From Vicinamibacterales bacterium (GTDB taxonomy: Bacteria > Acidobacteriota > Vicinamibacteria > Vicinamibacterales > SCN-69-37), in the NCBI GenBank assembly GCA_030827135.1, contig JAURFE010000002.1:1-64000 (forward strand): DNA of 64,000 nt. Reading direction: 5' to 3'. The notes beneath the pieces are model-generated. The model had not been told where the DNA came from and ran no database searches. It saw only the letters and a program-made list of their open reading frames with translations. The position numbers and the translations under genes are program-made. Positions within the stretch are counted from its first letter, which is position 1. Each line of letters starts with the position of its first letter. Below are positions 15,006-18,164 of this stretch, piece after piece.

Positions 15006-16020
15006 CCCGACAGAACGTCACCCCGACAGGCAATGTGACGTTCCACAACTCCTCGTCCGTCAGCACACTGAGCGCTGTGGCCCAGGCATCGGCCGTCGCG
15101 CCGTCGGGGGCGCGCACGTGGACGGTGCGGTGACTGGTCAGGCCCAGTCCCGTGCTCGGGTCCACCACGTGTGAATACCGCACGCCATCGATGACGACAA
15201 ATTGTGCGGTCGCGCCGGAGGTGGCCAGGGCGGCGTTGGCGAGGGAGACGGTCGTGGCGTTATTGGCGCGCTCAAGTTCAGCGCGCCCTCGTTTGGCCCG
15301 CTCAAGTTCAGCGGGCCCTCGTTTGGCCCGCTCAAGTTCAGCGGGCCCTACATGTTCAGCGAGCCCTACATCACATCCCACTTGCGCCACCCATCCGCGC
15401 GAGCTGCGGGGAGGGGTGCCGGCGACGATGTCGCCGCCGGCGTCGATGAGCGCGGCGGTGATGCCGTGGTCGCGCAGAGTGTCCATCGCACGCTGGAGGA
15501 TGTAGCCCTTGGCGATGCCGCCGAGGTCGAGGCGCATGCCGGCAACGGGCAGCCGCACGAAAAAACCTCCCGACGTTTTTTCCAGATGCAGGCGCGACCA
15601 GTCGACGAGCGCACGGGCGTCGGCGAGGCGATCGGGCGCCGGGAGGCGGCCGGACCGGCGCGCCTCGCGCCACAAGACGACGACGGGAGCGATGGTGGGA
15701 TCAAACGCGCCGTGGGTCGCGCGCGCCACGTCCACGGCCTGCGACAAGACAGCGAACACGTCGGGATGGACCTGCAGCGCATGTGGCGCGGCGCGCTCGA
15801 TGGCGCGCAGGTCGCTGTCGGGCCGGTAGTCGCTGAGCCGCGCGTCGAGCGCGGCGATGGCCGCAAACGCGGCCTCCCCCGCCCTCCGCGCGGCCGCCTC
15901 ATCGGGCGCCTCCATCGCGATCCGCACTTCCATCCCCATATGGACCTGCCGATAGACGTAAGATTCCCGAAATGAAGTCGGAAGAGTGGCGCACGACAAG
16001 GACAGGACCGCCACGCACAA
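14980..16020 (-). CDS. apbE: FAD:protein FMN transferase (ApbE family) with repeat insertions
   Basis: Attaches FMN to a Thr of extracytoplasmic flavoproteins such as Rnf/Nqr subunits. The core has MRLDLGGIAKGYILQRAMD, LIDAGGDIVAGTPP, ALATSG and YSHVVDPSTGLGLTSHRTV. The start is uncertain: a TTG at 16020 gives CVAVLSLSC, a lipobox; the ATG at 15939 would remove it. Three repeat insertions are in frame. EKTSGGFF comes from a half copy of the nested palindrome (15559-15582). AELERAKRGP-type 10-residue repeats come from 30-bp hairpin units (15265-15347) and lie just before the SLANAALATSG motif. The C-terminal GGGWAGG runs into a CCCGCC repeat. No Rnf or Nqr genes are in the window. Confidence 0.88.
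   Translation of the reverse strand: MCVAVLSLSCATLPTSFRESYVYRQVHMGMEVRIAMEAPDEAAARRAGEAAFAAIAALDARLSDYRPDSDLRAIERAAPHALQVHPDVFAVLSQAVDVARATHGAFDPTIAPVVVLWREARRSGRLPAPDRLADARALVDWSRLHLEKTSGGFFVRLPVAGMRLDLGGIAKGYILQRAMDTLRDHGITAALIDAGGDIVAGTPPRSSRGWVAQVGCDVGLAEHVGPAELERAKRGPAELERAKRGRAELERANNATTVSLANAALATSGATAQFVVIDGVRYSHVVDPSTGLGLTSHRTVHVRAPDGATADAWATALSVLTDEELWNVTLPVGVTFCRAGGGWAGG
15265..15377. repeat. Tandem 30-bp hairpin units (family B) in frame in apbE
   Basis: Three units of 23 nt (GGCGCGCT or GGCCCGCT, loop CAAGTTC, complementary arm) spaced by CTCGTTT, starting at 15265, 15295 and 15325, plus a degenerate fourth. The 30-bp period keeps the reading frame and encodes a 10-residue repeat of the AELERAKRGP type. 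The second and third copies have GC swaps matched on both arms (GCGC to CCCG). Confidence 0.93.
15559..15582. repeat. Half copy of the nested palindrome in frame in apbE
   Basis: A single hairpin GAAAAAAC, loop CTCCCGAC, GTTTTTTC. The loop shares CCCGAC with the full 53-bp elements. It is read as EKTSGGFF, close to the KKTSGVFF of waaC and lpxK. Confidence 0.8.
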
Positions 16021-16024
16021 GAAA

Positions 16025-16080
16025 ACGGTCCAGGGGTCCAGAGGTCCAGGGGTCCAGGAGTCCAGGAGTCCAGAGGTCCT
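16025..16080. repeat. GGTCCAGGG/GTCCAGGAG array between divergent genes
   Basis: About six copies of the 9-bp unit fill the gap between the apbE start and the FGE-like gene. If the latter starts at ATG 15972, the array encodes part of its N-terminal region (RGPEVQGSRSPGVQRS). Confidence 0.9.
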
Positions 16081-16085
16081 TCCTC

Positions 16086-16853
16086 GTGGCGGTCGCGATG
16101 ATCGTGGCCGCGACCAGTGTGCTTGCACAGTCACAACCCTCAACGTATCGCGAAACGATTGCCGGCACGCTGGTGAGCTTTGAAATGGTCCTGGTGCCGG
16201 GGAGCGCGACGCAGCCGTCCTTTTACATGGGCCGCACGGAAGTGACGTGGGACCTGTACGACGTGTACGCGCTGGGACTTGATGCAGACGCCCCGAAGCC
16301 GGCAGGCCTCGATGCGATCGGTCGTCCGTCGAATCCGTACGGCGCGCCTGACTACGGCTGGGGACACGCGGGGTACGCCGCGATCAGCGTGACCCGGCAC
16401 GCCGCCGAATCGTTCACGAAATGGCTTTCCCTCAAGACGGGACGGGAGTATCGTCTCCCCACCGACGCGGAGTGGCAGCACGCGGCGACGCTCGCCTGGC
16501 AGGGCAAGACCGCCGACGAAGTCGCCTGGCACGCCGGCAACGCGGGTATGGTGACGCATCCGGTGTCCAGGAAGGCACCCGACGCGTTGGGATTGTTCGA
16601 CCTGTTTGGCAACGCCGGGGAATGGGTGATGACCCCGGGCGACACACGCGTAATTCGCGGCGGCACGTATCGAAGCGGCCCGGATACCATCGGCCCGACC
16701 GCGCGCGCCGAACAGGACGAGACGTGGAACGAACGCGACCCGCAGCTGCCCAAGAGTCAGTGGTGGTTGTCGGACGGACCCTTTGTTGGATTTCGTGTGG
16801 TCCAGGGGTCCAGGGTCCAGGGTTCGGGTCCAGGGGTCCGAGGGAGAAAAGCG
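16086..16853 (+). CDS. Exported SUMF1/FGE-like domain protein, no stop codon of its own
   Basis: Formylglycine-generating-enzyme (SUMF1) fold: VLVPGSATQPSFYMGRTEVTW, then YRLPTDAEWQHAA, GLFDLFGNAGEWV, VIRGGTYRSGP and the terminal GFRVV. The N-terminus VAVAMIVAATSVLAQ is a signal-peptide core cleaved after Ala. I place the start at GTG 16086; an ATG at 16098 or 15972 is possible, the last adding a repeat-encoded basic region but running antisense to the apbE start. No cysteines are visible in the domain, so the two catalytic cysteines of true formylglycine-generating enzymes are missing. A sulfatase-activating role is therefore unlikely, and a structural or binding role more likely. The frame continues into the next gene. 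Confidence 0.75.
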
Positions 16854-18164
16854 ATGACTGAAATCAACCGACGCACGTTTATTCAGACAACGGCTGCGGC
16901 AGCGGCGGCGATGGCGTTCCCTGGGAGCATTCCGCTGGTGGGATTGCGGAAGGGGTCTGACACCATCCGCGTGGGCCTGATCGGCTGCGGAGGCCGTGGC
17001 ACGGGGGCGGCGCTCGATTGCCTGCGGGGATCGGACGGCGTGGAACTGGTCGCGATGGGTGACCTCGCGCCGGATCGCCTCACCGGCAGCCGCGCCGAGT
17101 TGACCAAGGCCACGGCGACCAATCCGGCGCTGGCCGCGAAATACAAGGTCACCGACGACATGACCTTCACGGGCTTCGACGCCTACAAGAAGGTGCTGGC
17201 GACCGACGTGCAGCTCGTCATCCTTGCCACACCACCCCACTTCCGTCCGCTCCATCTCGCCGCGGCGGCTGAAGCGGGCAAACACATCTTCGCCGAGAAG
17301 CCGGTCGCCGTGGATCCGGCCGGCGTGCGCTCGGTGCTCGCCACCTACGAACTCGCGCTGAAGAAGGGGCTCGGCATCGGCGTCGGCACCCAGCGCCGCC
17401 ATCAGGCGGATTACCAGACGACGATTGCGCGGATCAAGGACGGCGCGATCGGCGAGGTCCTCTCCGGTCAGGTCTTCTGGAATCAGGGCGGCCTGTGGAA
17501 CCGCGACCGTCAGCCGACCTGGACCGACGCCGAGTGGCAGCTCCGCAACTGGCTGTACTTCACCTGGCTCTCGGGCGATCACATCGTCGAGCAACACGTC
17601 CACAACATTGACGTCGCAAACTGGGTGCTGGGCGCGACGCCGATCAAGGCGACCGGTGTGGGGGGACGGCAGTTCCGCACGGACCCGAAGTACGGCCACA
17701 TCTACGACCACTTCGCGGTGGACTTCGAATACGCGAACGGCGCGCGCATCCTGAGCATGTGCCGGCAGATCCCCGGGTCGGCCAATCGCGTCGGCGAGAA
17801 CTTCATCGGCACCAAGGGGCAGTCCAACGCGTCTTCCCGGATCACCGGCGCGAACGCGTGGACGTTTACGCGGCCGGAAGGCGCGCCGCGCATCAACGGC
17901 TTCCAGCAGGAACACACGGACCTGGTCGCGAGCATCCGCTCGGGCAAGCCGTACAACGAGTTGAAGGGCATTGCCGACAGCACCCTCTCGGCCATCATGG
18001 GTCGCGAAGCGGCGTACACCGGCCAGGAGATCACCTGGGACCAGGCGCTCGCCGCCAAACAGGACCTCACGCCGCCGGTCGGTCACGCGGCCTACGGCGC
18101 GATGGACGTGCCCCCGGTTCCCATGCCCGGGCGCACCAAGCTCGACCGCGCGTGGAATGAGTGA
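16854..18164 (+). CDS. Tat-exported Gfo/Idh/MocA family oxidoreductase
   Basis: The 436-residue protein begins MTEINRRTFIQTTAAAAAAM, a twin-arginine signal. The Rossmann domain has VGLIGCGGRGTGAALDCL, and the family motif is AEAGKHIFAEKPVAVDP (catalytic Lys in EKP). The C-terminal domain carries the DHIVEQHVHNIDVANWVLG segment seen in exported members of this family. It should oxidise or isomerise a sugar or inositol-like compound with a tightly bound NAD(P). The GGGAGA 6-7 nt before ATG 16854 supports independent translation. The following gene is a Tat-exported TIM barrel, so the two may act together on one sugar. Confidence 0.88.
   Translation: MTEINRRTFIQTTAAAAAAMAFPGSIPLVGLRKGSDTIRVGLIGCGGRGTGAALDCLRGSDGVELVAMGDLAPDRLTGSRAELTKATATNPALAAKYKVTDDMTFTGFDAYKKVLATDVQLVILATPPHFRPLHLAAAAEAGKHIFAEKPVAVDPAGVRSVLATYELALKKGLGIGVGTQRRHQADYQTTIARIKDGAIGEVLSGQVFWNQGGLWNRDRQPTWTDAEWQLRNWLYFTWLSGDHIVEQHVHNIDVANWVLGATPIKATGVGGRQFRTDPKYGHIYDHFAVDFEYANGARILSMCRQIPGSANRVGENFIGTKGQSNASSRITGANAWTFTRPEGAPRINGFQQEHTDLVASIRSGKPYNELKGIADSTLSAIMGREAAYTGQEITWDQALAAKQDLTPPVGHAAYGAMDVPPVPMPGRTKLDRAWNE

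Follow-up and report, generated by a model that had tools for sequence, protein, structure and literature searches.

How do two genes that relatives keep apart come to share a single reading frame, and what would be made from it? The question is raised by a locus in a 64,000-nucleotide (nt) stretch of contig JAURFE010000002.1, from a Vicinamibacterales bacterium; we refer to the whole stretch as the window. Here a gene whose product resembles the formylglycine-generating enzyme (FGE) continues through an array of short tandem repeats into a gene for a Gfo/Idh/MocA-family oxidoreductase (gfo). The open reading frame (ORF) spans 15972-18164 on the plus strand and, by the ORF listing and by translation, has 730 codons and no internal stop. 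Pfam places along it, in this order, FGE-sulfatase at amino acids (aa) 81-222 (E 2.8e-11), TAT_signal at aa 297-317 (E 9.5e-6), and the N and C domains of GFO_IDH_MocA at aa 332-619. The array joins the two frames here and is absent from the junction in the relatives. Probably it did so near-neutrally in the window lineage, as a tolerated accident from which both a fused and a free product would arise. The features at issue are the following; G011 is the closest relative in the comparison set, which holds one genome per species.

15972-16799, plus strand: FGE-like gene (SUMF1-type, PF03781) with a Sec-type signal; by Pfam the domain lies at about 16122-16799. The start is uncertain, either ATG 15972, a position common to the window and G011, or GTG 16089
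16027-16079, plus strand: 8-bp array of GGTCCAGG at the 5' end of the FGE-like gene, found by Tandem Repeats Finder (TRF), between a divergent ApbE gene and the FGE signal peptide
16799-16839, plus strand: junction array of 7/8-bp GGTCCAGG/GGTCCAG(G) units (TRF array at 16799-16835)
16805-16828, plus strand: G-quadruplex motif on the coding strand, by pattern match; lacking in G011
16840-16846, plus strand: Shine-Dalgarno-like GAGGGAG before gfo (duplex -9.0 kcal/mol)
16854-16857, plus strand: ATGA, the gfo start overlapping the TGA that serves G011 as FGE stop, by frame translation of the window and G011
16854-18164, plus strand: Gfo/Idh/MocA oxidoreductase with its own start and a twin-arginine translocation (Tat) signal, by Pfam; 94% identity to G011
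about 16860-16922, plus strand: Tat signal of gfo, with NRRTFIQ shortly past ATG 16854

Directly after FVGFRV, the end of the FGE domain, come 54 nt, mostly GGTCCAG(G) units, and then ATG 16854; the end of the array passes into GAGGGAG-AAAAGCG-ATG, the gfo start region. In pairwise alignment with G011 (92% identity in FGE over 16122-16799), the window carries a net insertion of 37 nt of repeat units at 16802-16838. Between the final valine codon that the two genomes share (GTG, 16797-16799) and the start of gfo there are 54 nt (0 mod 3) here and 17 nt in G011, where FGE stop and gfo start overlap in the sequence ATGA. The corresponding TGA is still present in the window at 16855-16857, outside the FGE frame, and the third frame closes at 16859-16861. 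An earlier note on this DNA had proposed that the FGE-like frame runs via GGTCCAGGG repeats into gfo, and the open frame and its Pfam domains bear this out. Its further claim, of a stop codon erased by the repeat, stands in part: relatives do have a stop at the place of the array, but the G011-type TGA persists out of frame. As read from the sequence, the native FGE C terminus and its stop were replaced or pushed away, so that the stop is displaced or bypassed, not simply deleted. The GGTCCAG(G) unit is stop-free in every frame on both strands; an array of any length is therefore open, and openness alone is weak evidence. Given such an insertion, about one-third of the possible lengths would join the frames. 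What makes the junction notable is that relatives have a stop at that place.

The relatives give the polarity. A family search with the FGE part matched 6 of 14 genomes at E 0.001 or better, and clear orthologues (at least 65% identity) occur in five, all of the same genus and the window's own genome included; a class-wide search added two more, in G054 and G048. In all six of the closest orthologues the FGE frame stops 3 to 5 codons past GFRxV, and in the same six the junction array is absent. The residues before the stop are GFRVVTGAVK in G011, GFRLVREIKE in G010, GFRLVREIQ in G008, GFRLVREMQE in G012, GFRIVRTP in G054 and GFRIVMSEQ in G048. The neighborhoods of the first four were read from larger stretches, the G008 and G012 loci being on the reverse strand; the G011 sequence is identical to VFZF01000002.1 across the 14 kb compared. 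With a stop in all six of these relatives, as the earlier note had asked to see, and the array only here, displacement of the stop by the array is particular to this lineage. The common ancestor of the window species and G011 may have had its stop within ATGA, as G011 does, or a few bases upstream of it, as G010, G012 and G008 do.

More widely, the class search returned FGE-like matches (E 1e-15 or better) at 27 places in 19 of 193 genomes. A Gfo homologue adjoins the FGE-like gene in 24 of the 26 places outside the window (order FGE-Gfo in 16, Gfo-FGE in 7, divergent in 1); it was not found within the stretch examined at the other two (L094, L112), nor within the stretch examined at four FGE-like loci outside the class set (L007, L008, L040, L041). 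None of the 24 pairs shares an ORF, although in four (L091, L092, L095, L096) a single in-frame stop is all that separates the two ORFs. FGE and Gfo, judged from these loci, are conserved neighbors normally predicted as two proteins. A conserved fusion, which with a non-repeat linker would have told against the note, was rejected because 0 of 24 pairs are fused.

The proposed course of events is that a 7/8-bp GGTCCAG(G) array inserted or grew at the FGE 3' end, just upstream of the gfo ribosome binding site, and that its present length sets FGE in frame with gfo, bypassing the TGA. Ribosomes starting on FGE would then meet no stop and would make an FGE-linker-Tat signal-Gfo chain of about 690 to 730 aa. 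Ribosomes could also start at ATG 16854 on the kept Shine-Dalgarno sequence, making Gfo alone. That sequence (-9.0 kcal/mol) is the strongest of nine sites scored, and 13 of 1,000 random 20-mers (1.3%) are equally strong; all duplex energies were computed with an assumed canonical anti-Shine-Dalgarno sequence. Before the FGE-like gene, the score is weak at 15972 (-0.5) and stronger at 16089 (-6.5). Since the strong Shine-Dalgarno sequence and the ATG are retained, Gfo is probably also made separately. The note's view that gfo keeps its own ribosome binding site, ATG and Tat signal agrees with these scores and with the Tat region, where 38 of the first 40 residues are identical to G011 (dN/dS, the ratio of nonsynonymous to synonymous divergence, 0.05). 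Its alternative of a restart at 16854 gains from the strong site but is compatible with fusion; one would expect the fused chain as well as free Gfo. In the fused chain a Sec-type signal would stand at the N terminus and a Tat signal in the interior. A Gfo exported by Sec is unlikely to hold its cofactor; free Gfo therefore probably does the work.

Family assignments are clear for both halves. The FGE-like gene belongs to PF03781 (44 bits against a cutoff of 23.3), and Gfo exceeds the cutoffs of PF01408, PF02894 and PF22725. Gfo also scores as a Tat substrate (PF10518, 25.7 bits against 22.7), its export being a prediction. The catalytic formylglycine-generating enzyme has an active-site cysteine pair. 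No cysteine occurs in the FGE-like domain in any of the five genomes compared, and we therefore call the protein FGE-like, not a catalytic FGE. Among proteins of known structure, those nearest to it in sequence are Treponema denticola variable protein 1, ToxD and PvdO; Gfo relatives in the PDB include aldose-aldose oxidoreductase and inositol dehydrogenases.

The junction array is one of many. The pattern GGTCCAGGGGTCC occurs 64 times in the window's own genome and 0 times in a reversed control, which argues that the repeats are not due to chance. Matches to GTCCAG-N(1-2)-GTCCAG number 196 in this genome (control 2), 109 in G009, 75 in G008 and 46 in G011; G006, which belongs to a different genus of the family, has 204, and the nine other genomes have at most 10 each (9 in G010). 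The element is a dispersed short tandem repeat of 7-8 bp, found in many places and above control. It is patchy across the family, with G006 at about the level of the own genome and nine of 14 at 10 or fewer. A longer pattern, GTGCACTGGTGCAC, occurs 6 times in G011, once in G005 and not at all in the other 12 family genomes.

Our survey covered 54 arrays with at least three units, located in the window or in 40 stretches of its own genome; it drew on 100 of the 196 matches, without one listed site (C61). Among the matches listed, 9 of the 54 arrays were tagged as crossing a coding frame, each inside one protein: ABC-F, GltX, a PfkB kinase, an acyl-CoA synthetase (two arrays), a sigma factor, a MutS-domain protein, a chorismate-binding/aminotransferase protein and a 2-oxoacid dehydrogenase acyltransferase. 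A PheT-like protein, named by eye, makes a tenth. In-frame arrays in conserved enzymes (collectively GltX, acyl-CoA synthetase, PheT-like, acyltransferase, chorismate-binding protein and ABC-F) lie at L055 2295-2314, L057 3769-3826, L074 2478-2497, L089 2532-2578 and L080 2467-2504, and in the window at 13960-13993 and 14592-14657. The array peptide in GltX and acyl-CoA synthetase is common to G011 and absent in the other congeners aligned. That arrays lie in frame within single enzymes suggests that such linkers are tolerated. No further gene-gene fusion was found among the nine tagged arrays and six same-frame cases read by eye without Pfam; the tagging rule passes over the junction at 16854 (gfo start 0.07, with a limit of 0.1), and what it misses therefore counts. 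Given a unit that is stop-free and not a multiple of three in length, each array near a stop may lengthen or fuse a protein.

The junction array also contains a G-quadruplex motif (four G-tracts of at least 3, loops of 1-7), whose folding is a prediction. No RNA hairpin is claimed at the junction, where the fold is weaker than that of shuffled sequences (z +1.5).

Could the fused frame be an artifact? An indel error in the assembled array would create it falsely, FGE really ending at the TGA of ATGA or at 16859-16861, and an error of 1-2 bases in the G-rich array would suffice because both other frames close there. Of the 26 indel clusters that fall within genes over the 40.9 kb of gene sequence compared with G011, 25 amount to a net multiple of three. 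The sole exception (-29 at 62827) lies near an ORF 5' end, at a place where G011 carries a repeat array; arrays elsewhere also stay in frame inside enzymes. The assembly thus shows no sign of being indel-prone, although the array length itself is not proven thereby. We regard the error, the other outcome by which the note could have failed, as unlikely. The same arithmetic makes a copy-number switch possible: one 7- or 8-bp unit changed would end the fusion, since from 54 nt a change of -7 or +8 bp would bring FGE to the ATGA stop and one of -8 or +7 bp to the TGA at 16859. Unit gain and loss could then toggle fused against separate, coupled genes as in phase variation. At the 5' array close by, ahead of the FGE signal peptide, the sister genomes differ even in unit type, GGTCCAGG here and a different 8-bp array, GTGCACTG, in G011 (L045 11131-11177). 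The junction units, however, are imperfect and only about five, so that slippage should be lower. In the simple-sequence-repeat phase variation of Haemophilus and Neisseria, a unit number not divisible by three shifts the frame; here the genes have metabolic roles and are not of the surface-variation kind, and there is one genome per species. Phase variation was also judged unlikely for comparable heptamer repeats in the portion of Rehm et al. (PMC4692102) used here. Such toggling seems distinctly improbable to us, and slightly more so a three-way length switch between a fusion, ATGA-coupled separate genes and separate genes with a slightly longer overlap. If true, the latter would mean that repeat slippage alters gene architecture and not just on/off expression.

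Selection for the fusion, as a useful bifunctional exported protein made from linked conserved neighbors, would accord with the adjacency of the two genes in 24 of 26 other places and with the absence of close orthologues of both from G009 and G013; on these two grounds the proteins may act together. Yet not one of the 24 pairs is fused, even where one stop divides them, and the linker is plain repeat. The properties of Tat transport and of GFOR-type enzymes also make it unlikely that a Tat signal in mid-chain, within a Sec-exported protein, would export a folded, cofactor-bound Gfo. We hold this reading to be very unlikely. Hardly any weight falls on the remaining one, in which the FGE part is dying, the array giving it a nonfunctional C-terminal extension, and only the internally started Gfo matters. 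The loss of the native C-terminal residues and the strong internal Shine-Dalgarno sequence would fit, but the FGE part retains its high identity to G011 and no stop or frameshift lies within it. Its dN/dS against G011 is 0.10 and that of Gfo 0.07, indicating purifying constraint on both. Changes specific to the window branch versus its sister are 3 versus 4 in FGE and 5 versus 12 in Gfo (11 and 8 sites unpolarised), so neither gene has an excess on the window branch. Relaxed selection on FGE after the fusion was set aside for want of excess changes on the window branch, at low power.

We infer that the joined frame, with its two products, is a tolerated, near-neutral by-product of spreading repeats and not a selected enzyme. 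Several points weigh against this account. The fused polypeptide is a prediction from sequence. The frame hinges on precisely how long the array is: a single wrong base would part the genes again. Each dN/dS value covers all the time since the two species split and not just the period after the insertion, and few changes could be counted per branch. One genome represents the species. After the insertion FGE and gfo are spaced more widely than in relatives, where they lie close, so that neutrality may not be strict.

Parallels exist elsewhere. The STRR (short tandemly repeated repetitive) heptamers of cyanobacteria are, like the present array, short and dispersed with species-specific units; unit and lineage differ. 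Compared with translational coupling through an ATGA overlap (PMC6728339, PMC10666635), G011 has its FGE stop and gfo start as ATGA, whereas in the window the ATGA is outside the FGE frame. A literature search, judged on its search results, returned no report of this array or lineage. According to the parts of Rehm et al. (2015, PMC4692102) consulted, GGGNATC heptamer repeats of Xanthomonas and Nostoc form G-quadruplexes and often lie at most 50 bp from stop codons on the coding strand, sometimes overlapping them. Insofar as those parts describe them, they share with the present repeat 7-8 bp G-tract units, small dispersed arrays and length variation between close species; here, in contrast, the unit is GGGTCCA/GGGGTCCA, the lineage is another, arrays lie in frame inside several enzymes, one joins two genes, and the G-quadruplex is a motif only. 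Borg tandem repeats, in the excerpts of Schoelmerich et al. (2023, PMC9879509) drawn on here, evolve fast, occur in and between genes, and leave ORFs open with a repeat peptide added; their ORF-internal units are divisible by three, whereas with 7/8-bp units the frame is kept by total length only. The present locus illustrates clearly, with relatives to polarise the change, how a repeat insertion makes two conserved neighbor genes one frame. The arrays inside tRNA synthetases and other enzymes of this genome and its relatives would allow repeat remodeling of proteins to be tested. Gene callers will annotate the locus as a two-domain enzyme with a mid-protein signal peptide.

Two neighboring genes flank the pair.

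14980-16143, minus strand: divergent ApbE-family gene, by Pfam, its 5' end overlapping the first array
18228-19142, plus strand: xylose isomerase-like TIM barrel, the next gene, by Pfam and blastp of neighbor ORFs

A TIM-barrel gene follows FGE-Gfo, by blastp, in all four congeners with the pair (G011, G010, G008 and G012). A 648-aa antisense ORF (window 16140-18086, minus strand) covers FGE-Gfo and is likely a by-product of GC-rich coding sequence. Within the ApbE gene, 30-bp repeats at 15263-15352 encode a repeated AELERAKRG-type peptide and are 69 nt longer than in G011; a 34-bp array resembling them lies at window 53574-53700. Elsewhere, a coding-like sequence of about 1.2 kb (window 29293-30542) is missing in G011, and a transporter-like ORF (11519-12706) adjoining tRNA-Leu (gag) has no counterpart at that place in G011. 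The tRNA-Leu (gag) itself lies in opposite orientation in the two genomes (window 12775-12861; G011 L045 8066-8152). Other repeat families, ATTGAGG/CCTCAAT and CCATTGCC, occur at window 22271-22392, 50705-50856 and 56834-56907 and explain several of the larger indels relative to G011.

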